64,000 nucleotides of DNA from Candidatus Schekmanbacteria bacterium (GTDB taxonomy: Bacteria; Schekmanbacteria; GWA2-38-11; J061), in NCBI GenBank assembly GCA_016219965.1, contig JACRJM010000006.1, forward strand, positions 1-64,000. The letters are read 5' to 3'. Below are positions 33,732-44,909 of the stretch, piece by piece. The translations under genes and the position numbers were made by a program. The notes under the pieces are model-generated. The model was not told the DNA's origin. It did not search any database and saw nothing but the letters and a program-made list of their open reading frames with translations. Position 1 is the stretch's first letter; each line of letters begins with the position of its first letter.

Positions 33732-34040
33732 TTAACCTATCGTAATGCCTGTTCTTTCAATTTCTTCAGAGAAGCCTGATCGATCTTCAGATTTTATAAA
33801 AAGATGCGGCTCTATTCTGACATCAATATCATCAGCTAATTCGTAAAGCCTTTCCATCAAATGAAAATAATCATCATCCGGATCTAAGCTGTCAATAAAC
33901 AAACCAATATCTATATCACTAAAAGACTGCGGATTTCCATTGGCATACGACCCAAACAGAACAGCTTTTCTTAAAAAAAGAATCTCTCTGATTAGCTTTA
34001 TATATTCTTCTGCTTTTCTAATAATTTCTGTTTGATCCAT
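33732..34040 (-). CDS. MNT-type minimal nucleotidyltransferase (antitoxin of HEPN/MNT pair)
   Basis: A 102-residue minimal nucleotidyltransferase. GSYANGNPQSFSDIDIGLF gives the GSx10DxD active site, and the full NTase core is present. In HEPN/MNT toxin-antitoxin systems the MNT protein blocks the HEPN RNase, in some cases by AMPylating it. Overlaps the end of the HEPN gene by 43 nt. Confidence 0.87.
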   Translation of the reverse strand: MDQTEIIRKAEEYIKLIREILFLRKAVLFGSYANGNPQSFSDIDIGLFIDSLDPDDDYFHLMERLYELADDIDVRIEPHLFIKSEDRSGFSEEIERTGITIG

Positions 34041-34405
34041 TTCTGCATCTCCTGTGTCTTGCTTAGAATTTCTTTGCAGTTTTCATAGGTTAAAGAGTCA
34101 AATATTCTTTCTTTATACTCAGGATATCGTGCATCTATGTTCATTGGCTCCAACATTCTAAAAAAAGATTTCTGGGTTTCTGACAATGATTCACTTAACC
34201 CAGTTTCTTTTGCAAGAAATCTTAGATTATGAGTCTTTGGAGGGATTTCATCTCTTATCAGCTGATAAAAAGCTTTTAGAATTTTCTCTATAGCCTGATG
34301 ACACATGAAACCTACATACAAAAATCTTCTCGTTTCCAACATTGCACTTGCAGTTTCAATATCGTAGTCGGAAATTTCAATCCAGTATTGGACTTTGTCA
34401 TTCAC
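33998..34405 (-). CDS. HEPN domain protein (toxin of HEPN/MNT pair)
   Basis: A 135-residue all-helical HEPN protein. MCHQAIEKILKAFYQ in helix 2 and RDEIPPKTHNLRFL with the conserved Arg and His are the RNase-type signature. First gene of a two-gene overlapping unit with the MNT protein, the classic order. No promoter can be assigned with confidence in the 217-nt region between it and the divergent HTH-EIIA gene. Confidence 0.87.
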   Translation of the reverse strand: MNDKVQYWIEISDYDIETASAMLETRRFLYVGFMCHQAIEKILKAFYQLIRDEIPPKTHNLRFLAKETGLSESLSETQKSFFRMLEPMNIDARYPEYKERIFDSLTYENCKEILSKTQEMQKWIKQKLLEKQKNI

Positions 34406-34622
34406 TATAATAGTTCTTAATTAGAAGGTACAATTAACATTGGAAATGTTACTATCAAAATTGATTTATTGTCAAAAGAATTCAACTTGCAGAGAGATTT
34501 TTAATCATGCCTATACATCAAATCTGTGCGATTATTGACAGAGGCTCACAAAAGGAGTATTAATCACGTTTTAAATATTTGGCAGTTCTGTAGTGCAGTA
34601 AAAGCATAATGGGAAAGGTATA

Positions 34623-35339
34623 ATGCAGTTAAACATCAGGGACGCTGCAAAGCTTCTGCACGTCTCAGAAAAAAAAATATATGAATGGATCCGGGATCGG
34701 AAACTTCCGGCAAATCAGGTTAGCGGACGTACATGGTTCAATCGGGCCGAGCTTCTTGAATGGGCTACTTCGCAGGGCGTAAACATCTCAGAAGAAATTA
34801 TTGAAACAACGGATGCCACCTCTGTTTCAGGTGTGGGTTCAGGTTCTGGCTCAGCTTTAAGTTTTTCCAGCGCTCTTGAACGGGGGGGAATTTTCTATAA
34901 TGTCGAGGGTGATGACAAACCATCAGTACTTAAATCTGTTCTTGATCTCATGCCGCTTCCAAAGGAGGCTGACCGCAAGTCATTGCTGCGCGTTCTTCTT
35001 GCAAGAGAAGAATTATCATCAACCGGAATCGGCAAGGGGATAGCAATACCGCATTCCAGAAACCCTATAGTTTTTCATGTTTCACAACCTGTAATTTCTT
35101 TATGCTTTCTGAAAAAAGAGATAGATTTCTGCGCTATCGACGGAGAACCTGTTCATACTCTTTTCACGATTGTGACTCCCAATGCCCGTATTCATTTGCA
35201 ACTCCTTTCAAGGCTCGCATTTGCGCTTCATAATCCTTCCTTCAACAAAGTCATCAAACAGAAACTCCCGAAGGAAGAGATTCTAAAGATGGCGCACCGG
35301 ATCGATTCAAATATCAAATCACCTGGTTCAACCGGATAA
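34623..35339 (+). CDS. HTH (excisionase/MerR-like) - PTS EIIA fusion regulator
   Basis: A 238-residue two-domain protein. Residues 1-55 are a winged HTH of the excisionase class (LNIRDAAKLLHVSEKKIYEW, RTWFNRAELLEW). A Ser/Gly-rich linker follows (65-83), and residues 90-235 are a PTS EIIA (fructose/Ntr type 2) domain with phosphorylatable His144 in GKGIAIPHSRN. It could sense PEP-dependent phosphorylation and act on DNA. It starts 22 nt upstream of the Ehr operon in the same direction, so it is probably its regulator or a co-transcribed sensor. Pairing of such a fusion with an Ehr complex is inferred from position only. Confidence 0.85.
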   Translation: MQLNIRDAAKLLHVSEKKIYEWIRDRKLPANQVSGRTWFNRAELLEWATSQGVNISEEIIETTDATSVSGVGSGSGSALSFSSALERGGIFYNVEGDDKPSVLKSVLDLMPLPKEADRKSLLRVLLAREELSSTGIGKGIAIPHSRNPIVFHVSQPVISLCFLKKEIDFCAIDGEPVHTLFTIVTPNARIHLQLLSRLAFALHNPSFNKVIKQKLPKEEILKMAHRIDSNIKSPGSTG

Positions 35340-35360
35340 ATAAAGGGCAGGACATTTCCA

Positions 35361-37349
35361 ATGTTCTATATTCTCATAGCAATCAGTGTTTTCATAATCA
35401 GCGGTTTCGGCGCACTTGCAACCCGCAGGTCTCCGATAACAGCCTCAGGTATTGGAGCCGCAGGCGCAATAGCAGGCTCTGTTGCCGGGCTATTCCCGGC
35501 AAGCCGGATCCTTACCGGAGGAAGCTCTGAATCATTCCATGCTTCATGGAATATACCATACGGCTCCTTTAACATCGGACTGGATGGTCTTTCCGCATGG
35601 TTTGCTGCAATTATCCTCGGATTGTCCATTATAGCCGCAATGTACGGCTACCGGTATCTCATGGCTTACAGGGAGAAAAAATCTCTCGGGACGCCGTGGT
35701 TCTTCTTTAACCTGCTCATTGCAAGCATGCTCATGGTCGTCATCGCAAGAAACGGGATATTATTCCTTGTTGCATGGGAGATCATGTCTCTCTCATCTTT
35801 TTTTCTGGTCACATTCGAAAATGAAAAAGAACATGTGCAAAAAGCCGGCTGGACTTATCTTGTTGCAACGCACACAGGCACAGCATTTTTATTCGTCATG
35901 TTTATTCTGCTTGGAGGCAGGAGCGGCTCTCTTGACTTTGAACGGTTGGGTCAGGTAAACAATCTTTCCCCCACAGTCATAACCATAATATTCTTATTTG
36001 CCATTGCCGGATTCGGCACAAAGGCCGGTTTTGTTCCGCTCCATGTGTGGCTTCCTGAAGCACATCCTGCCGCGCCAAGTCATGTATCTGCCCTGATGTC
36101 AGGAGTCATGATCAAAACAGGCATTTACGGCATTATGCGGATCTTAATGCTTCTTGGCACGCCGCAACCATGGTGGTGCTGGATGATGGTAGGGATTGGA
36201 TTGAGTTCAGGTATCATTGGTATTCTCTTTGCGCTTACCCAGCGTGAGCTTAAACCTTTGCTTGCATATAGCAGTGTAGAAAACATCGGAATCATAATGA
36301 CAGGGCTTGGTCTGGGATATCTCGGGCTGAGTTTCGGATCCTTTACAGTAGCGATACTTGGTTTTGGAGGTGCACTGCTTCATGTCATGAACCATGCAAT
36401 TTTCAAGGGTTTGCTTTTTTTAGGCGCAGGCTCGGTGATACACAGTACAGGCACGGGAAACCTCGACCGTCTCGGAGGTCTTCAAAAAAGAATGCCGTGG
36501 ACAGGGATGACATTTCTCACCGGCGCGGTTGCAATCTCGGGACTGCCTCCGCTTAATGGATTTATCAGTGAGTTCATGATCTATTCGGGCGCATTTTATT
36601 TAATCATTGCAAATCACGGGGAGACAGCAGGATTGATGCTCGCAATTATCGGAGGTCTAGCCCTGATAGGCGGACTTGCCGCCACCTGTTTTACAAAAGT
36701 TTTCGGAATATGTTTTCTTGGCGAACCAAGGACAAAACATGCCGCAGACGCTCATGAGCCGGGTCTTTTAATGCGGATACCGATGTTGATTCTTTCTGCT
36801 GCATGTCTCTTTATCGGGATATTCCCCTATGCTGTTGTAAAGCTCCTTATACCCGTTTTAAGAGATATAACCGGAGGAGGCGCAGGAGCTATTGAAGAAA
36901 GCATGAGAAAAGTCACAGACATGCTTTCATTTATCGCAGTTTGTGCATGCGGAGTCTTACTTCTCGCATGTGTGATAGCGATTATTCGCCATATACTCCT
37001 CAAGGGACGAAAGACAGAAGAAACTGTTACATGGGACTGCGGATATGCAAAGCCTTCACCGCGAATGCAATACACTTCATCTTCATATCCTGCGGTGCTG
37101 ACAGGACTTTTCAGCAAATTCATCTGGTTAAAAGGAAGAGGTCTTCCGCCAAAAGGTTTTTTTCCTGCGCACGCATCATTTGCAAGCGAACCTGAAGATA
37201 CTTTTCTTGAAGGCTTTTATCAACCTGTCTTCAATGTAATAAACCATGGCATATCCAAACTGAAGTGGCTTCAGCGCGGAAAAGTGCAGGTTTATGTTCT
37301 TTATATTGCCCTTACACTTTTAATCCTTTTAATCTGGGGGCTGATGTAA
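35361..37349 (+). CDS. Ehr complex antiporter-like subunit (HyfB/HycC, NuoL/MrpD family)
   Basis: A 662-residue membrane protein with about 14-16 transmembrane helices. The proton/ion-pumping core motif WLPEAHPAAPSHVSALMSG lies near residue 235, and the N-terminal helices have SWEIMSLSS-like AWEIMSLSSFFLV. The C-terminal part (about 560-640) is a long loop ending in a final helix. It would couple electron transfer in the Ehr complex to cation movement. First structural gene of the operon; 3 nt separate it from the NuoH-like gene. Confidence 0.9.
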   Translation: MFYILIAISVFIISGFGALATRRSPITASGIGAAGAIAGSVAGLFPASRILTGGSSESFHASWNIPYGSFNIGLDGLSAWFAAIILGLSIIAAMYGYRYLMAYREKKSLGTPWFFFNLLIASMLMVVIARNGILFLVAWEIMSLSSFFLVTFENEKEHVQKAGWTYLVATHTGTAFLFVMFILLGGRSGSLDFERLGQVNNLSPTVITIIFLFAIAGFGTKAGFVPLHVWLPEAHPAAPSHVSALMSGVMIKTGIYGIMRILMLLGTPQPWWCWMMVGIGLSSGIIGILFALTQRELKPLLAYSSVENIGIIMTGLGLGYLGLSFGSFTVAILGFGGALLHVMNHAIFKGLLFLGAGSVIHSTGTGNLDRLGGLQKRMPWTGMTFLTGAVAISGLPPLNGFISEFMIYSGAFYLIIANHGETAGLMLAIIGGLALIGGLAATCFTKVFGICFLGEPRTKHAADAHEPGLLMRIPMLILSAACLFIGIFPYAVVKLLIPVLRDITGGGAGAIEESMRKVTDMLSFIAVCACGVLLLACVIAIIRHILLKGRKTEETVTWDCGYAKPSPRMQYTSSSYPAVLTGLFSKFIWLKGRGLPPKGFFPAHASFASEPEDTFLEGFYQPVFNVINHGISKLKWLQRGKVQVYVLYIALTLLILLIWGLM

Positions 37350-37352
37350 CGG

Positions 37353-38288
37353 ATGGAAACTCTTTCATTTATTCCTCTATTTATTCCTCTATTTATTCCG
37401 CCATTAATGGCCATAATTTTATCACCACTTATCCCCGGAGTGATAAACCGTACCAAGGCGTTATTTGGAGGAAGAAAAGGCCAGCCTATTTTTCAGCTTT
37501 ATTACGACCTCTGGAAACTTGCTGGCAAAGGAGCTGTTTACAGCCGTACGACATCATGGATCTTCCGGGCAGGCCCCATAGCAGGACTGTCTTCTGTTTT
37601 GATAGCGCTAACTCTCATTCCTTTCGGCGGGATCAGGGCTCTTATTGCTTTTAACGGCGACATCATACTGTTTGCGTACATACTCGGTCTTGGCCGTGTT
37701 TTTACTATCCTCGCAGCGCTCGACACAGGGTCAAGCTTTGAAGGTATGGGGGCAAGCCGCGAAGCACAGTTTTCAACCCTTGCAGAAGTCACACTTTTTT
37801 TAGGGCTTTCAGCGGTTGTGATCAAGACCGGGACATTTTCTATCTCAGGAATCTCTAAGGCTTTATCACTTGATACATGGACAAGCTCTTTGGCAGTACT
37901 TGTTCTTGCAGGTATCTCCATTCTCGCCGTATTCCTTACCGAGAATTGCCGTATCCCGGTAGATGACCCTAACACACATCTTGAACTCACTATGATTCAT
38001 GAAGTAATGGTGCTGGACCACGGAGGTCCTGATTTGGCATTGATTCTTTATGCAGGAGCATTGAAGCTCTGGGTGCTTGGTGCACTGATGGCCGGAATAA
38101 TCCTTCCTGTACTTAGCAGCAATTACTGGATGAACATCCTGATGACATCAGCTTTTCTGTTCATACTTTCTGTCAGCGTCGGGATCATTGAATCAACAAT
38201 GGCAAGGCTCAGGCTTCGCAGGATTCCGCAACTCCTCATCGGAGCAAGCGCAACCGCGGTCATTGCACTTGCCCTGGCGCTAAGGTGA
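37353..38288 (+). CDS. Ehr complex NuoH-like membrane subunit (HyfC/HycD)
   Basis: A 311-residue protein with eight hydrophobic segments. GRKGQPIFQLYYDLWKL in the first cytoplasmic loop and ENCRIPVDDPNTHLELTM (the ExxRxPxDxPxTHLELT motif of NuoH and HycD) are conserved. NuoH-like subunits dock the peripheral arm to the membrane arm. Good length for HyfC (about 310). Confidence 0.9.
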   Translation: METLSFIPLFIPLFIPPLMAIILSPLIPGVINRTKALFGGRKGQPIFQLYYDLWKLAGKGAVYSRTTSWIFRAGPIAGLSSVLIALTLIPFGGIRALIAFNGDIILFAYILGLGRVFTILAALDTGSSFEGMGASREAQFSTLAEVTLFLGLSAVVIKTGTFSISGISKALSLDTWTSSLAVLVLAGISILAVFLTENCRIPVDDPNTHLELTMIHEVMVLDHGGPDLALILYAGALKLWVLGALMAGIILPVLSSNYWMNILMTSAFLFILSVSVGIIESTMARLRLRRIPQLLIGASATAVIALALALR

Positions 38289-38304
38289 TATCTAAGGTGA
38301 TATA

Positions 38305-38958
38305 ATGATAAATTTCTTTGATGCCATAATGATCGTATTTATGATCACAAGCCTTCTTCTTCTCGGCTCAAGCAGGCTTGCAGGCTGCATACGGATCGTT
38401 GCATTGCAGGGGATACTCCTAAGTCTTCTGCCTCTCATGGTAAGCGGGGGCGGGTTAACTATCGACTCATTGATCCTTTCTATAGGGACAATCATTTTAA
38501 AGGGGATGGTCTTCCCGTGGTTATTGTCCCGTGCAATCCGTGAGGCCGAAGTACGTCGCGAAGTAGAGCCTTTTGTAGGCTACATAACATCGCTTGGCTT
38601 TGGAGGTGCGGCATTCGTAATCTCATTATGGATAGGCTCACGGCTTCCAGTCCCTCACGGGGAAGCTTCATCTCTTACATTGTCCGTTGCATTCTTCACT
38701 ATTTTAACAGGATTTTTCCTTATAGTCACAAGGCGGAAAGCCATAAGTCAGGTGCTTGGGTATCTTACGCTTGAAAACGGAATCTATACTTTCGGGGTAG
38801 GACTCGCATACGATGAGCCTCTCCTTGTTGACCTTGGAATATTACTCGATATTTTCGTTGCCGTATTCGTCATGGGTATCACGCTTTTTCATATCAACCG
38901 TGAGTTTGACAGCATAAGCACCGACCAGCTCGTAGAATTGAAGGACGGAGAAAAATGA
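38305..38958 (+). CDS. Ehr complex HyfE-like membrane subunit
   Basis: A 217-residue polytopic protein with six or seven helices and an acidic C-terminal tail, the length and profile of HyfE (NuoK-related). A GTIILKGMVFPWLLSRAI segment and LGYLTLENGIYTFGV are its most family-like parts. AAGGTGAT precedes the ATG, and its stop overlaps the next ATG (ATGA). Assigned largely by position plus membrane pattern. Confidence 0.8.
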   Translation: MINFFDAIMIVFMITSLLLLGSSRLAGCIRIVALQGILLSLLPLMVSGGGLTIDSLILSIGTIILKGMVFPWLLSRAIREAEVRREVEPFVGYITSLGFGGAAFVISLWIGSRLPVPHGEASSLTLSVAFFTILTGFFLIVTRRKAISQVLGYLTLENGIYTFGVGLAYDEPLLVDLGILLDIFVAVFVMGITLFHINREFDSISTDQLVELKDGEK

Positions 38959-40433
38959 TCTCAGCATTGATATTAGTCCCTCTCTTTGCAGGTATCGCGG
39001 CGCTGATCCTGCGAAATAATATTTGGCGCAGGGGATTGCTGTTGATCACTGCGATTTTCCACACAGGTATGACTTTGTCAGCATGGTCGGTGAAACCAGC
39101 ACCTTCACTTGAAGGATGGCTTGCTTTTGATGCAATAGGTCTTCTGTTTCTCACGATAACAAGCCTTCTTTTTTTCTTCTGTAGTTTATATGCGATCAAT
39201 TATCTGAAAAACGAACCGCCTGTAAACCATGAGGACTTTGAAGAAAGGGTTTTCTTTTCAAATGCACCTGAAGCAAGGTTCACCGGATGTCTTCTTTTTT
39301 TTCTTGCAACCATGACCCTTGTCCCGCTTTCCCAGCATTTCGGGATACTCTGGGTATCAATTGAAGCAACGACGCTTGCCAGTGCGCCGCTTATCTTTTT
39401 TCACAGACATCACAGGTCTCTGGAGGCGACATGGAAATATCTGCTTGTCTGCTCTGTCGGAATCGCAGTTGCATTGCTCGGCAATTTCTCCCTTGCCGTA
39501 GCTGCCTCCATGGAAAAAGGGAACCATATCTCCATGGTCCTTGGCGAGATGATAAAAGATGCACCACATCTTCATATCCCGTGGCTTAAAGCAGCTTTCA
39601 TATGTTTTCTGGTAGGCTATGGGACAAAAATGGGGCTTGCTCCGATGCACACATGGCTTCCTGATGCTCACAGTGAATCACCTTCAGTAGTCTCCGCACT
39701 TCTCTCAGGAGCGCTTCTAAACTGCGCCTTTGTAGGGATATTAAGGGCATATCAGATTTGCTCTGCCGCGGGAATCGCACAGTTCAGTCAGAAATTACTT
39801 ACTGTATTCGGTCTTTTTTCAATGCTTGTAGCCGCAGTTTTCATTATCGGCCAGACCGATTACAAGCGGCTTCTCGCATATTCAAGCATAGAACACATGG
39901 GTATCCTCTCTCTCGGTGTCGGTATCGGGGGAAGCGCAAGATTCGGCGCAATCCTTCATGCAATCAATCATTCGTTTACAAAGGGGATGCTTTTTCTTCT
40001 GGCAGGGAACATCCTTAGTTTTTATAAAACCAAGGACTGCGGCAGGGTCAAGGGGATATCACGCATCCTTCCTCAATCAGGAGCATTATGGATAGCCGGG
40101 CTCTTTGCGATTACCGGTTCTCCTCCATTTGGCTCATTTATAAGCGAGTTTCTCATATTGAAAGGCGCCATTGAAAGCGGACACTTCATCGCAGCATCAG
40201 CATATCTCCTGTTTCTGGCCCTGATTTTCATAGGGATGGCAACCGTCATGATGCCAATGGTACAGGGAACCCCGTCAGAAGAGATTAAAAACCTCAAACC
40301 GGGAAAAGAAACCCTGCTTTCAATAATACCCCCAGTGGCGCTCGGTATTATAATGGTAGTGCTTGGCATCTATATTCCCTCCTTTCTAAGCCGTGCGGTT
40401 GAGCAGGCATCTAATATGTTGGGAGGATTCTGA
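38955..40433 (+). CDS. Ehr complex second antiporter-like subunit (HyfF, NuoL/M/N family)
   Basis: A 492-residue membrane protein with about 14 helices and the WLPDAHSESPSVVSALLSG core motif near residue 240. The N-terminal YAINYLKNEP segment and LKRLLAYSSIEHMG-like YKRLLAYSSIEHMG are typical of NuoL/M/N. Having both a HyfB-like and a HyfF-like pump is the Hyf/Ehr layout. Overlaps its neighbours by 1-4 nt at both ends. Confidence 0.9.
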   Translation: MISALILVPLFAGIAALILRNNIWRRGLLLITAIFHTGMTLSAWSVKPAPSLEGWLAFDAIGLLFLTITSLLFFFCSLYAINYLKNEPPVNHEDFEERVFFSNAPEARFTGCLLFFLATMTLVPLSQHFGILWVSIEATTLASAPLIFFHRHHRSLEATWKYLLVCSVGIAVALLGNFSLAVAASMEKGNHISMVLGEMIKDAPHLHIPWLKAAFICFLVGYGTKMGLAPMHTWLPDAHSESPSVVSALLSGALLNCAFVGILRAYQICSAAGIAQFSQKLLTVFGLFSMLVAAVFIIGQTDYKRLLAYSSIEHMGILSLGVGIGGSARFGAILHAINHSFTKGMLFLLAGNILSFYKTKDCGRVKGISRILPQSGALWIAGLFAITGSPPFGSFISEFLILKGAIESGHFIAASAYLLFLALIFIGMATVMMPMVQGTPSEEIKNLKPGKETLLSIIPPVALGIIMVVLGIYIPSFLSRAVEQASNMLGGF

Positions 40434-41959
40434 TGGATAATTTTCCTTTTTTAAATATCTATAACTCCGTAGCCGTACCCTTTGAAAACATTCCATTACT
40501 TGATATTTCCCGGTTCAGAAAAGAAGTTATAGAGTATGTTGAAGCCGGGGCAAGGATTGTGTCATTGTTCGGTTTTAGAAGAAAAGATAATTCTGTCCTT
40601 CTCATAGCTGTTATTGCGCAGGATCAGACCGGAGTCCTGTCTCTTGCGGCCAGTGAATGCGGGAATACCTATAAATCATTGACACCCGACTGCCCGCAGG
40701 CGCACTGGTTTGAAAGGGAAATAGCAGAACAATTCGGCATCCATCCTGAAGGTCATCCATGGTTAAAGCCGGTCCGTTTTCACTTACCATTTGGCGCTGA
40801 AAAGAATAAGCAGAAACAACATCAGGGAGAGAAAGAAATGCTTCCGGGCGTTACTGATTTTTTTGAAGTCGAAGGTGAAGAGGTGCATGAAGTCGCAGTC
40901 GGCCCTGTTCACGCAGGGATAATCGAGCCGGGACATTTTCGTTTCCAGTGCCACGGAGAAAAAGTCCTGCACCTTGAGATATCACTTGGCTACCAGCACC
41001 GCGGTATAGAGCAGGTTATTCCCGGAGGACCTGACAAGCGCACAATCCACTACATGGAAACACTTGCCGGCGACACTTCGGTGGGACATGCTTCCGCATA
41101 TTGCCATGCCGTTGAGGCATTGGCAGGATGCAATATTTCCGCAAGGGCGCAGACTCTTCGGGCAGTCGCCCTTGAGCTTGAACGCCTTGCAAATCACACA
41201 GGAGATCTGGGAGCGCTTTCCGGAGATATCGGCTATCTTCCGACAGCATCATATTGCGGAAGGCTGCGCGGCGATTTTCTCAACATGACGGCGCTCCTTT
41301 GCGGAAGCCGTTTCGGACGCGGGTTTATAAGACCGGGAGGAACAGCATTCGACACAGATGAAGCTCTCGTCTCAGAACTTTTAAAAAGGCTTGAACGTGC
41401 AACGGAAGAGACAGCAGGGGCTGTAAACCTGCTCTGGGAAACTGCAACCGTTGTGGGAAGGTTTGAAGAAACAGGAAAACTTGAACGGGAAACCTGTGAA
41501 GCTTTAGGAATCGTGGGCGTTCCTGCAAGAGCAAGCGGCATAGTGCGTGACGTAAGGTTCGATTTTCCATACGGCTACTTCAGGTTCTCTCAAATCCCTG
41601 TATCCACGTGGGGCTCAGGTGATGTATTTGCCAGAGCTTATGTTCGCTGGCTTGAGATACAGAGGTCTGCAGATTTCATCCGGCAGGAGCTTAAAACAAT
41701 GCCCGATGAAAAGGTGAAAACCAGCATAGGTAAATTATCTTCCGATTCACTCGTAGTATCACTCGTTGAAGGCTGGCGCGGGGAGATCTGCCATGTAGGG
41801 ATAACAGATGAGAACGGCCGCTTTTCCCGCTATAAGATAGTCGATCCTTCATTCCACAACTGGTTCGGGCTTGCAATGGCCATGCGCAATGAGGAGATAT
41901 CAGATTTTCCTTTATGCAATAAAAGTTTCAACCTTTCATACTGCGGACATGATTTGTAA
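40433..41959 (+). CDS. Ehr complex large subunit (HyfG/HycE-like, NuoCD fusion) lacking Ni-Fe cysteines
   Basis: A 508-residue protein: a 30-kDa NuoC-like domain at about 1-140 (ADCPQAHWFEREIAEQFGI-type segment), then a NuoD/[NiFe] large-subunit domain. The N-terminal Ni-binding motif RxCGxC is replaced: the aligned stretch reads METLAGDTSVGH (Ala and Thr for the two Cys). The C-terminal DPCxxC is replaced by VDPSFHNW (Ser and Asn). All four nickel ligands are thus absent, the defining feature of Ehr as opposed to group 4 hydrogenase. Catalysis of H2 is not expected; the site may bind quinone or another acceptor. Central gene of a six-gene operon. Confidence 0.92.
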   Translation: MDNFPFLNIYNSVAVPFENIPLLDISRFRKEVIEYVEAGARIVSLFGFRRKDNSVLLIAVIAQDQTGVLSLAASECGNTYKSLTPDCPQAHWFEREIAEQFGIHPEGHPWLKPVRFHLPFGAEKNKQKQHQGEKEMLPGVTDFFEVEGEEVHEVAVGPVHAGIIEPGHFRFQCHGEKVLHLEISLGYQHRGIEQVIPGGPDKRTIHYMETLAGDTSVGHASAYCHAVEALAGCNISARAQTLRAVALELERLANHTGDLGALSGDIGYLPTASYCGRLRGDFLNMTALLCGSRFGRGFIRPGGTAFDTDEALVSELLKRLERATEETAGAVNLLWETATVVGRFEETGKLERETCEALGIVGVPARASGIVRDVRFDFPYGYFRFSQIPVSTWGSGDVFARAYVRWLEIQRSADFIRQELKTMPDEKVKTSIGKLSSDSLVVSLVEGWRGEICHVGITDENGRFSRYKIVDPSFHNWFGLAMAMRNEEISDFPLCNKSFNLSYCGHDL

Positions 41960-41968
41960 GGTAAAAAT

Positions 41969-42748
41969 ATGCTGAAGGTCTTAAAAGAGCGTTTTAAACA
42001 GGGTAAATGTACAATTGCCTATCCGGCAGGAGATGCACCTCCTCTGCCGAACCGCTTTAGGGGATATCCTGCGATCGACCGGTCTAAATGTCCCGACAAC
42101 TGCCGCGCCTGTATAGACGCATGTCCTGTGGGCGCTGTTTCATTTGTTGTTTCATCTGCACTTTCATGTAATGACAAGACAATTCAGATTGATTTAGGTA
42201 AATGTCTTTTCTGCACCGAGTGCACAGATGCATGCACAGGGAAAGCAATAAGCTTCACGAAAAATCACGAGCTTTCAAAACATAAGAGGGAGAACCTGAT
42301 TTTAAAAGCAGGCGAAACAATGAATGTTGAGACAGGGCTTGATAAAAAAATAAAAAAACTTTTTGGCAGGTCTCTAAAGCTCCGCCAGGTCAGCGCCGGA
42401 GGATGCAACGGCTGTGAGGCTGATATAAATGTGTTGAGCACCATAGTCTATGATCTTGGCCGCTTCGGCATTCAGTTTGTCGCATCGCCACGCCATGCAG
42501 ATGGCCTGCTCATAACAGGCCCGGTCACTGAAAATATGAAACTTGCCCTTGAAAAAACTTATGCTGCCGTACCGTCTCCAAAGCTTGTCATTGCAGCAGG
42601 CGCTTGCGCTATCTCAGGAGGTCCATATATTGGCCACTGTCAGGCTAACAACGGAGCTGACAGCATAGTACCGGTTGATTTATATATCCCGGGCTGTCCG
42701 CCCCATCCGCTTACAACTCTTCACGGTCTGCTAATGCTAAAAAAGTAA
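41969..42748 (+). CDS. Ehr complex fused ferredoxin + NuoB-like small subunit (HyfH-HyfI fusion)
   Basis: A 259-residue fusion. Residues 30-95 hold two ferredoxin-type clusters (CPDNCRACIDACP and CLFCTECTDACTGKAI), as in HyfH/NuoI. Residues 125-255 are a NuoB/HyfI domain with the N2-like cysteines in GGCNGCEAD, GACAISGG and PGCPPHP. The proximal cluster near the vacant active site is therefore kept. In E. coli Hyf these are two genes. Last gene of the operon, followed by a repeat/hairpin region. Confidence 0.9.
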   Translation: MLKVLKERFKQGKCTIAYPAGDAPPLPNRFRGYPAIDRSKCPDNCRACIDACPVGAVSFVVSSALSCNDKTIQIDLGKCLFCTECTDACTGKAISFTKNHELSKHKRENLILKAGETMNVETGLDKKIKKLFGRSLKLRQVSAGGCNGCEADINVLSTIVYDLGRFGIQFVASPRHADGLLITGPVTENMKLALEKTYAAVPSPKLVIAAGACAISGGPYIGHCQANNGADSIVPVDLYIPGCPPHPLTTLHGLLMLKK

Positions 42749-42762
42749 GTAAAAAAGAGAGT

Positions 42763-42862
42763 AAAAAAGGGACGCAACCCTTATAAAAATTAAAAAGGGG
42801 ACGCAACCCTTATTAAAGAAAAGTAAAAAAGAAAGAAAAAAAGGGTTGCGTCCCCTTTTTAA
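42763..42862. repeat. Cluster of GGGGACGCAACCC repeats forming a bidirectional terminator
   Basis: Two direct copies (AAAAAGGGACGCAACCC at 42763 and AAAAAGGGGACGCAACCC at 42792) and one inverted copy (GGGTTGCGTCCCCTTTTT at 42843-42860) lie between convergent genes. The second direct copy and the inverted one can pair over about 20 bp and end in T-runs on both strands, so the array probably ends both the Ehr and the MoaD transcripts. Another copy is at 32858. The stop codon of the MoaD-like gene lies within it. Confidence 0.75.
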
Positions 42863-43104
42863 TTCCCGCCGGCGACAGGTGGGAAAATCGCAACGCGGTC
42901 GTTTTCTTTTACAATGTAATCAAGCTCGGCATGGACGCCGTTCACGATTATGATCTTTGTTTCTTCTTTTGGTATGCCAAGCAGTTTAAGAAGACTTTCT
43001 ATTGAAGTGTTGTCTTCAATATCTATCATCTTCCCCTTCGCAAGATCAAGGTCCGGCATATATTTCAAAAGGGTAGCATAAGCTCTGACTTCGATTTTCT
43101 GCAT
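42859..43104 (-). CDS. MoaD/ThiS-family sulfur carrier protein (AOR-associated)
   Basis: An 81-residue ubiquitin-fold protein with IEVRAYATLLKYM at the N-terminus and DRVAIFPPVAGG before a final Asn. The usual C-terminal Gly-Gly that becomes a thiocarboxylate is followed by one extra residue. MoaD-like proteins next to AOR genes supply sulfur for the tungsten-pterin cofactor, and the AOR gene lies 65 nt upstream. The terminal Asn would have to be removed or tolerated before activation. A terminator hairpin separates it from AOR. Confidence 0.85.
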   Translation of the reverse strand: MQKIEVRAYATLLKYMPDLDLAKGKMIDIEDNTSIESLLKLLGIPKEETKIIIVNGVHAELDYIVKENDRVAIFPPVAGGN

Positions 43105-43128
43105 AAAAAATTACCTTGCCTCAAAAAA

Positions 43129-43159
43129 AAGCCTGCCGTCCGAGCGAGACGGCAGGCTT
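43129..43159 (-). terminator. Intrinsic terminator between AOR 1 and MoaD-like gene
   Basis: On the minus strand a perfect 12-bp stem (AAGCCTGCCGTC) with a 7-nt loop is followed immediately by eight T residues. It lies 10 nt past the AOR stop, so it should sharply reduce read-through into the MoaD-like gene. Confidence 0.85.
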
Positions 43160-43169
43160 GAAATTAAAC

Positions 43170-44909
43170 TTATAGTTTTGCCCAGACCTGATCCAGCTCA
43201 GCCGGGGTGATACCGAAATTGATGTTATGCGGAGGACATGTTTCAAGGTCAAAGAACTCCGGAAGCCTGTCGTCGTTCTTGTTGAAACCTGCTGCCTCGT
43301 TGAATTTGAGCTCTGTGCGGATAATGCTCTTGCCAAGCTCGATAATATCAGGAACCGTGAATGTGATTCCGTACTGAGCACTGATCATATCTGCAATAGC
43401 CTGCAATCCTTCTGGCATATCAAGGCATGCAATCGCAACAAATAGACAAAGCCCTGTTGCATCAACAGCCGCTGTTGCAACCTGCATATCCCTTGAGCAG
43501 TCAACCTGTCCCTCTTTCTTAAGAGGATTGATATCGCCGCCTACCTTGAGGATGTTCTGGCATACAGAATAACCTGCTGTATGGTCTGCGCCCATTGTGC
43601 TTGTGGCATAGGTTACGCCGATACCTTTTACTGTCCTCGGGTCATAAGCAGGAAGCGCCTGTCCTTTAACAACAGGAACGCGGGTAATCCCGTATATCTT
43701 GCCGAGAACTGCTGCGCCCTGTCCTACTATTCTGCCGAGAGGCGTTTTCTTTCCTACTTCTTCAAGGACTTTGATAAAGGAAGCTGCATCGCCAAACTTT
43801 GCAAGCCCTGCTTCTGCAGCAACTGCAAGGGTAACTCCTGCTTCTATCGTATCAATTCCCACGTCATTGCAAATCCTGTTCATTATCGCAACGCTGTCAA
43901 TGTCGCCAACTTCAAGATTGCCGCCCAATGACCATGCTGTCTCATATTCAACTGGAGCACAAAGTGATTTACCATTCTTGTCAGGGAAAATATTGGAACA
44001 CCTGATTACGCATCCTGGATGGCAAACATGTACTGCTTTTCCTTCACCGCCGCGGCTCTTACATTCTTCAGCTATCTTTTCTCCGCTGATTCCTGCTGCG
44101 CCTGCAAAACGGCCGTTCCTGAAATTCCTGGTCGGGAATCCGCCTGCTTCATTCAGGATGTTGACCAGAACTGCTGTCCCGTAGTTGGGAAGCGCTTCAC
44201 CTGTAACCGGGTGCTTTAACAGGACCTGGCTGAAAATCTTTGCTGCTGCCTTGAATTTCTCTTCATCTTTGATGGCAACCTTACCTGCGCCTGCATCATC
44301 AACGACTATTGCCTTTAGTTTCTTTGAACCCATAACTGCGCCTAAGCCGCCTCTTCCTGCAAACCTTCCTGAGCCGCCTTCAGGGTCGCATACGGAGATT
44401 CCGGCATTCGCCATTCTCTCTTCACCTGCGGGTCCAATGCTGATTACGCCAACGCCTTTGCCGTGCTTGTTCCAGAGCTTCTCAACTGTCGCATAGGTTC
44501 CAAGACCTGCAATGTCATCTGCTGAAACGAGTTCCGCGCCATCTTTTGTAACTTTCAGAAGATGCCACTTGTTGTCTTTAGGTTCACCTTCAATGATGAT
44601 AGCCTTGACATTGTTCTTTGCGAGCTTCTGGCTTGCGATACCTCCGACGTTCGATTCTTTGATCGTGCCGGTAAGAGGACTCTTTCCGCCAAAAGACATC
44701 CTGCCTGAGCATGCTGCAGATGTGCCGCTTAAAACTCCGGGCGCTGCGATAAGCTTGTTAAGCGGTCCCAGAGGATTGCATGTCGCCTGAATTTCGTCTG
44801 CAACTATCTGCGAAGTCAGACTGCGTCCGCCTAGCAGTGCATACTTAGCCGGGCACTTCTCCTCTTTCACTTTCAGTGTGGTCATATCCACTCTGATGAT
44901 TCTGTCCAT
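43170..44909 (-). CDS. Aldehyde:ferredoxin oxidoreductase (tungsten AOR family) 1
   Basis: A 579-residue AOR. The N-terminal tungstopterin-binding region contains PLTGTIKESNVGG and GRGGLGAVMGSKKLKAI. The [4Fe-4S] cysteines are C296, C300 and C304 (CHPGCVIRC), with a distal Cys near 500 (ATGLCLFVAI). AORs oxidise aldehydes to acids with ferredoxin as acceptor, or the reverse under strongly reducing conditions. The MoaD-like gene lies directly downstream. The exact subfamily (AOR, FOR, GAPOR, BamB-like) is not decided by motifs alone. Transcribed alone apart from leaky termination. Confidence 0.92.
   Translation of the reverse strand: MDRIIRVDMTTLKVKEEKCPAKYALLGGRSLTSQIVADEIQATCNPLGPLNKLIAAPGVLSGTSAACSGRMSFGGKSPLTGTIKESNVGGIASQKLAKNNVKAIIIEGEPKDNKWHLLKVTKDGAELVSADDIAGLGTYATVEKLWNKHGKGVGVISIGPAGEERMANAGISVCDPEGGSGRFAGRGGLGAVMGSKKLKAIVVDDAGAGKVAIKDEEKFKAAAKIFSQVLLKHPVTGEALPNYGTAVLVNILNEAGGFPTRNFRNGRFAGAAGISGEKIAEECKSRGGEGKAVHVCHPGCVIRCSNIFPDKNGKSLCAPVEYETAWSLGGNLEVGDIDSVAIMNRICNDVGIDTIEAGVTLAVAAEAGLAKFGDAASFIKVLEEVGKKTPLGRIVGQGAAVLGKIYGITRVPVVKGQALPAYDPRTVKGIGVTYATSTMGADHTAGYSVCQNILKVGGDINPLKKEGQVDCSRDMQVATAAVDATGLCLFVAIACLDMPEGLQAIADMISAQYGITFTVPDIIELGKSIIRTELKFNEAAGFNKNDDRLPEFFDLETCPPHNINFGITPAELDQVWAKL

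Follow-up and report, generated by a model that had tools for sequence, protein, structure and literature searches.

Ehr complexes, the Ech/energy-converting hydrogenase-related complexes, are exemplified by GSU0739-0745 of Geobacter sulfurreducens (PMC6349859; PMC7894505). In that species the abundance of the Ehr subunits is higher on formate (PMC7894505), and a complex of formate dehydrogenase with Ehr has been proposed for Margulisbacteria (PMC6349859). Pyrococcus MBS (Mbx), a sulfane sulfur reductase, is group 4-like, lacks a Ni-Fe center, and has no counterparts of Nqo4 H38 and Y87 (PMC7684303). Here we describe a locus in a 64,000-nucleotide stretch of a Candidatus Schekmanbacteria bacterium (contig JACRJM010000006.1, positions 1 to 64,000; the window) in which seven genes at 34623-42748, co-oriented on the + strand and never more than 21 bp apart, encode a regulator with a helix-turn-helix (HTH) and a phosphotransferase system (PTS) EIIA domain, followed by a six-subunit Ehr complex. 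A preliminary description of the locus had placed an HTH-EIIA gene directly upstream of a six-gene Ehr complex, and its coordinates and gene order agree with open reading frame (ORF) and domain analysis. Pfam matches to HTH_17 (1e-11) and PTS_EIIA_2 (5e-26) lie in one reading frame, which stops 21 bp 5' of ehrA on the same strand.

As expected of an Ehr complex, the membrane subunits include antiporter-type and NuoH-type proteins, and the locus agrees with published accounts of Ehr in its subunit types and in its lack of Ni-Fe ligands (PMC6349859; PMC7894505). The named Geobacteraceae loci L074 and L078 hold complex and regulator together. Escherichia coli formate hydrogenlyase-1 (FHL-1) and hydrogenase-4 are also similar in that EhrL resembles HycE and the membrane subunits match HycC/HycD and Hyf proteins. 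Ehr differs from them, however, in having no Ni-Fe ligands, another C-terminus, fused electron transfer and small subunits, and a regulator of a different kind. Neither the regulator pairing nor the operator described below is mentioned in the accessible portions of PMC6349859 and PMC7894505, and no paper on an HTH-fused EIIA beside Ehr was found in the searchable literature, from which most subscription papers are missing. Ehr complexes and EIIA domains have been described before; accessible papers yielded no mention of their pairing across many phyla, of the operator, or of the covariation of helix and operator.

Linkage of the regulator gene to Ehr operons

An EhrL alignment scan of GTDB contigs returned at least 575 relatives, and the best 80 loci were analyzed with their flanks; since these are the loci closest to the window's EhrL, the linkage rate given here applies to this part of the Ehr family. 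By tblastn and an iterated hidden Markov model, an HTH-EIIA gene was found within the flanking stretch of 44 of the 80. For 32 loci at which the gene was missing or a contig end truncated the flank, the search was widened to the whole genome, and 11 genomes proved to have strong copies (>220 bits). Nine of these adjoin an ehrA gene in the flanking stretch, which in the L066 and L093 genomes belongs to a second Ehr operon. With seven loci added to the 44, on the same or a split contig, the final scoring was 51 linked loci (five of which, L054, L057, L065, L097, and L108, were scored across split contigs), 18 unlinked loci with complete flanks, and 11 undetermined loci, so that 51 of 69 informative loci (74%) are linked. 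The linked loci span about 12 phyla, and linkage stays while the regulator gene shifts among positions upstream of, inside, divergent from, and downstream of the complex genes. Among 336 diverse genomes sampled, every regulator match of at least 240 bits (11/11) shared a contig with ehrL and lay no more than 10 kb from it; among weaker matches, those in G344, G098, and G294 were near ehrL and those in G102, G151, and G288 were not.

The preliminary description had considered the pairing noteworthy, had called for a survey of Ehr operons, and had held that the absence of any other linked operon would speak against it; the survey found the opposite. Clustering of flanking ORFs at the 80 loci revealed no other specific nonsubunit family that recurs (a generic kinase type appeared at 13 loci and others at no more than 4), and two further clusters were, from their coordinates, the regulator gene read in antisense. 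Linkage requires 17 changes of state on the EhrL tree, versus 29 in shuffles, and one basal group of eight EhrL proteins is entirely unlinked. Two tandem HTH-EIIA genes, one copy sometimes diverged, were seen at L053, L067, and L130. In two genomes a regulator-linked Ehr operon coexists with a second Ehr operon that has no regulator (L124/L093 in G071 and L133/L066 in G063).

A predicted tandem-repeat operator in relatives

Promoters of regulators with the recognition helix EK[TS][VIL][YH]R often carry a 10-bp tandem repeat, TGTCCAAAWW-TGTCCAAA. Direct repeats of the form TGTCY-N5-TGTCY, in either orientation, occur in 16 of 43 regulator upstream regions, compared with 0.3 expected from dinucleotide shuffles, and 18 TGTCY repeat pairs are spaced exactly 10 bp. 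Across 2.7 Mb on both strands, 20 of 24 exact occurrences are upstream of a regulator, and when sites were scored leave-one-out, the top site at each locus adjoined the regulator in 16 of 16 cases. In the commonest layout the first repeat begins where the -10 box ends (TTGACA-N17-TAnnAT-GTCC), 45 to 51 bp before the start codon. Among held-out regulators, that of G300 has TGTCCAAAGATGTCCAAA at -51 (25 bits), that of G032 has a weaker site, and those of G346 and G344 have partial sites only. An exact-pattern search did not find the TGTCC repeat at unlinked Ehr loci. A wider regulon was considered and rejected, as 16 genomes shared no second target and counts were near those of a reversed-pattern control. 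The genome of L041 (G372) contains eight scattered copies of TGTCCATCYGTGTCCA, probably an unrelated repeat family.

All 16 repeat-bearing regulators have a recognition helix of the form [ED]K[TS][VI][YH]R. When held-out regulators and the window are counted as well, the repeat accompanies the helix EK[TS][VIL][YH]R in 18 of 25 cases, versus 0 of 31 with other helices (Fisher p = 2e-9, kinship not removed). Repeat and helix each change at least 10 times on the regulator tree, and the few independent pairs that differ in both (about two) always do so in the same direction, although they are too few for significance. Since the repeat covaries with the recognition helix, the regulator is predicted to bind it head to tail, and it probably does so in the manner of BldC and as a local autoregulator. 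BldC, a MerR-like winged HTH protein, assembles head to tail on direct repeats of 9 bp (PMC5859096), which makes such binding plausible for HTH-EIIA proteins. These would resemble BldC as small MerR-like winged HTH proteins acting on direct repeats (9 bp per subunit for BldC and 10-bp repeats here); BldC differs in having no EIIA domain and in the sequence and period of its repeats. An HTH_17 domain is present, and the 10-bp repeats are found in relatives and not in the window.

Because the window's own promoter has no recognizable repeat, the operator motif is shown for relatives only. A candidate promoter of the operon is present at a place similar to that of TTGACA-N17-TAnnAT in several relatives; it was missed by a consensus scan because the scan demands T at position 6 of the -10 box. 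A recognizable operator in the window was rejected, as lags of 9, 10, 11, 20, and 21 bp gave only weak self-similarity. Judging from its helix (EKKIYE) and the missing repeat, the window's regulator is better seen as a diverged member of the family.

The EIIA domain and the phosphotransferase system

The C-terminal domain has the EIIA fold and two conserved histidines, H144 and H191, as expected of an EIIA-Ntr domain. It resembles PtsN (EIIA-Ntr) in fold and His site, whereas PtsN is a free single domain and the domain here is fused to a DNA-binding head and has the common signature IPHxRNP. Among 26 aligned regulators, the H144 counterpart is missing only from L082 and L102; the L082 genome has no HPr, and the L102 genome has a weak partial HPr match. 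The two His-less regulators (L082:4277-4963 and L102:4231-4917) still have the operator repeat, in reverse orientation. The window's genome encodes an rpoN-hpf-ptsN-hprK-EIIA(man)-EIIB-EIIC-EIID-HPr-EI cluster, which includes a separate PtsN. Of the Ehr genomes, 51 of 55 with linkage have HPr, versus 14 of 25 without linkage (p = 2.5e-4), and the base rate is 236/336. Phosphotransfer control is supported only indirectly, by the conserved His, a complete PTS, and loss of the His in two genomes in which HPr is absent or degenerate. The Geobacteraceae PTS is vestigial and signaling-only, and its third IIA protein is absent from P. carbinolicus (Pelobacter genome paper, PMC3543383). That third IIA protein may be the Ehr-linked regulator.

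The acceptor site of EhrL

A profile of seven EhrL proteins aligned nearly full length with E. coli HycE (7z0s). As the preliminary description had stated, all four Ni-Fe cysteines are replaced (by A212, T215, S502, and G505), and LAGDT stands in place of VCGIC at L1. Its further reading of DPSFHN as the counterpart of DPCxxC was mistaken: DPSFHNW pairs with HycE RAATYANW, about 30 residues before the true L2, and the HycE loop SLDPCYSCTD pairs with EhrL SFNLSYCGHD, in which NLSYCGHD forms residues 500 to 507 at the extreme C-terminus. DPSFHN was therefore rejected as the L2 motif, and the loss of all four cysteines still holds. Since D214, S502, and G505 are invariant among 36 aligned EhrL proteins, as are I164 and E165, the loss is not a sequencing artifact. 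The quinone residues of complex I are gone as well, with I164, just before E165, at the position of His38 (Nqo4 numbering) and G213 at that of Tyr87.

The description of EhrS was borne out. Ferredoxin-type and NuoB/HycG-type domains are fused in a single polypeptide, as in most relatives. Eight cysteines lie in the ferredoxin part, and four more form a CxxC...C...C proximal motif; the proximal cluster cysteines are retained in hydrogenase-type spacing, and the protein aligns gap-free to MbhJ and HycG around CNGC.

Thus, EhrL lacks the four Ni-Fe cysteine ligands of group 4 [NiFe] hydrogenases, and EhrL and EhrS lack the His38, Tyr87, and CC proximal motif of complex I. MBS is like Ehr in the absence of the Ni-Fe center and of the Nqo4 H38/Y87 counterparts, but MBS retains two of the four cysteines, has no E21, and has a shortened proximal-cluster loop (PMC7684303), whereas Ehr has lost all four cysteines and retains CxxC, with CNGC spacing like that of MbhJ, and the invariant E165. 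Given this combination (E165 and CxxC kept, metal and quinone ligands lost, and the differences from MBS), Ehr is, as judged by alignment, a separate solution: hydrogenase gate and clusters with no metal and no complex I quinone ligands. The best structural match of the EhrL model is HycE (template modeling [TM] score, 0.83), and the NuoD fold is also matched. In the monomer model the predicted local distance difference test (pLDDT) falls below 50 over residues 124-141, 150-163, 165-175, and 490-508, pocket loops included, and we therefore make no ligand claim for the cavity.

Proposed model and alternatives

We propose, and consider fairly probable, that an operon-dedicated, phosphotransfer-responsive autoregulator controls the Ehr complex. 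The HTH_17 head would bind the promoter driving its own gene and the Ehr complex, and in relatives with the ancestral helix the regulator would occupy 10-bp head-to-tail repeats, (TGTCCAAAWW)n. A repressor position is proposed because the repeats commonly span the -10 box to the start site. The EIIA-Ntr-type domain would accept phosphate from HPr at His144, phosphorylation would alter cooperative DNA binding, and the phosphorylated form (high phosphoenolpyruvate [PEP], no sugar) would most likely release DNA and derepress ehr; we guess at this sign of control from where the operator lies and from the G. sulfurreducens formate data. Ehr would be an FHL/Mbh-like ion pump, in which electrons from a soluble low-potential donor would enter through EhrS, by way of its pair of ferredoxin clusters and its proximal CxxC cluster, and would reduce a small acceptor bound where EhrL has lost its Ni-Fe center. 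The computed parts of this proposal are linkage, operator motif, helix-operator covariation, conserved His, and loss of Ni-Fe and quinone ligands, to which binding, sign of control, phosphorylation, ion pumping, and substrate are added by reasoning. The combined claim is more tentative, and we lean slightly toward doubt: an undescribed multi-phylum HTH_17-EIIA family would read PTS state and repress or derepress Ehr alone through head-to-tail assembly on a 10-bp tandem operator, and Ehr would have a third kind of acceptor site, that of neither a hydrogenase, a quinone reductase, nor MBS.

Several observations weigh against this proposal. Eighteen Ehr loci with full flanks have no HTH-EIIA gene, and the regulator is therefore not required for Ehr. 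No recognizable repeat is present at the window's promoter (best score upstream, 4.1 bits), and beyond the regulator promoter exact repeats are at chance level genome-wide in 16 genomes, by the reversed-pattern control. The HPr association is confounded by ancestry, with too few phylogenetically independent pairs to confirm it, and no HPr was detected in the genomes of three His-bearing regulators (L040, L113, and G294). The repressor sign and the phosphorylation step are presumed.

The EIIA domain might instead dock with Ehr, or with a different protein, and set its activity posttranslationally, with the HTH merely limiting the level of its own gene. Free EIIA-Ntr-type proteins can act via other proteins, for example in (p)ppGpp accumulation in Caulobacter (PMC4848567), and the regulator gene sits between ehrA and hyfC in several Verrucomicrobiota; however, the conserved HTH and the covarying operator at the same promoter favor a transcriptional output, and we consider docking unlikely. 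Linkage could also reflect shared ancestry or hitchhiking on transferred cassettes, with no present coupling to the PTS. This would fit the clustering of linkage on the EhrL tree, the patchiness of Ehr (absent from the three nearest compared relatives of the window's genome), and the lack of support for HPr dependence from the independent-pairs test, yet linkage persists over about 12 phyla despite shuffled operon position, the operator occurs only alongside the canonical helix, and the His is kept in 24 of 26 regulators, both losses falling in genomes with no HPr or a degenerate one, so that hitchhiking appears distinctly unlikely.

Binding of the TGTCC repeat by another transcription factor, with the HTH-EIIA protein binding elsewhere, is improbable: although regulator-repeat binding is a prediction and 7 of 25 canonical-helix regulators have no repeat, the repeat accompanies none of the 31 noncanonical helices despite similar operons and was not found at Ehr operons without the regulator. 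Independent of the regulator is the question of whether EhrL is a complex I-like quinone reductase, as its match to the NuoD fold and its loss of Ni-Fe cysteines, as in complex I, would allow. Replacement of His38 by an invariant isoleucine and of Tyr87 by glycine, together with retention of the hydrogenase-type E165 and CxxC proximal motif, makes this unlikely.

Features of the locus and neighboring genes

Coordinates are collected in Table 1. An interval of about 2 kb between ehrA and hyfC in L040, L055, L062, L067, L071, and L074 is probably an extra antiporter-type subunit. The idea that Ehr operons have a conserved neighbor, such as a gene for formate dehydrogenase or aldehyde:ferredoxin oxidoreductase (AFOR), was rejected, as none recurs across the 80 loci. 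In the window, a MoaD/ThiS-like gene and an AFOR gene (42859-44909, - strand) are convergent with ehrS; neither family recurs near other Ehr operons at these loci. Divergent from the regulator is a HEPN and MNT-type nucleotidyltransferase pair (33732-34405, - strand), whose predicted -10 is covered by the palindrome TAACATTGGAAATGTTA (about 34435-34451) and which looks like an autoregulated toxin-antitoxin-type pair.

Table 1. Features of the regulator-Ehr locus in the window
Feature	Position	Strand	Basis
Candidate sigma70-type promoter of the operon, TTGACA-N17-TATTAA	34535..34563	+	Sequence reading
Leader; location of the TGTCC tandem operator in relatives, not found here	34564..34622	+	Best score 4.1 bits upstream
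HTH_17-EIIA regulator, 238 aa	34623..35339	+	Pfam; AlphaFold model, mean pLDDT 88.8, EIIA part resembles PtsN structures
HTH recognition helix region, VSEKKIYEW	34662..34688	+	Diverged from the repeat-associated EK[TS][VIL][YH]R type
H144 codon, phosphorylatable His of the EIIA site (IAIPH)	35052..35054	+	Alignment; kept in 24/26
ehrA/hyfB-like antiporter-type subunit, 662 aa	35361..37349	+	Domain and similarity matches
hyfC/hycD/NuoH-like membrane anchor, 311 aa	37353..38288	+	Domain and similarity matches
hyfE-like membrane subunit, 217 aa	38305..38958	+	Domain matches
hyfF-like antiporter-type subunit, 492 aa	38955..40433	+	Domain matches
ehrL, NuoCD/HycE-like large subunit without Ni-Fe cysteines, 508 aa	40433..41959	+	Domains, alignment, structure comparison
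EhrL E165 codon (MbhL E21 proton gate), invariant	40925..40927	+	Alignment; residue roles, PMC7684303
L1 remnant LAGDT: Ni-Fe Cys to A212, T215; quinone Tyr87 to G213	41063..41077	+	HycE alignment
DPSFHN, earlier misread as L2	41843..41860	+	Pairs with HycE RAATYANW
True L2 remnant NLSYCGHD: Ni-Fe Cys to S502, G505	41930..41953	+	HycE alignment
ehrS, HycG/MbhJ-type small subunit carrying a fused two-[4Fe-4S] ferredoxin domain, 259 aa	41969..42748	+	Domains, alignment

Conclusions

Ehr complexes are widespread and expressed. With a dedicated regulator and a predicted operator in hand, it becomes possible to test when Ehr is needed. The active-site map narrows the search for the acceptor, pointing to neither Ni-Fe nor complex I-type quinone chemistry. 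The regulator pairing would join the state of central carbon metabolism, through PEP/HPr phosphorylation, to a bioenergetic complex.

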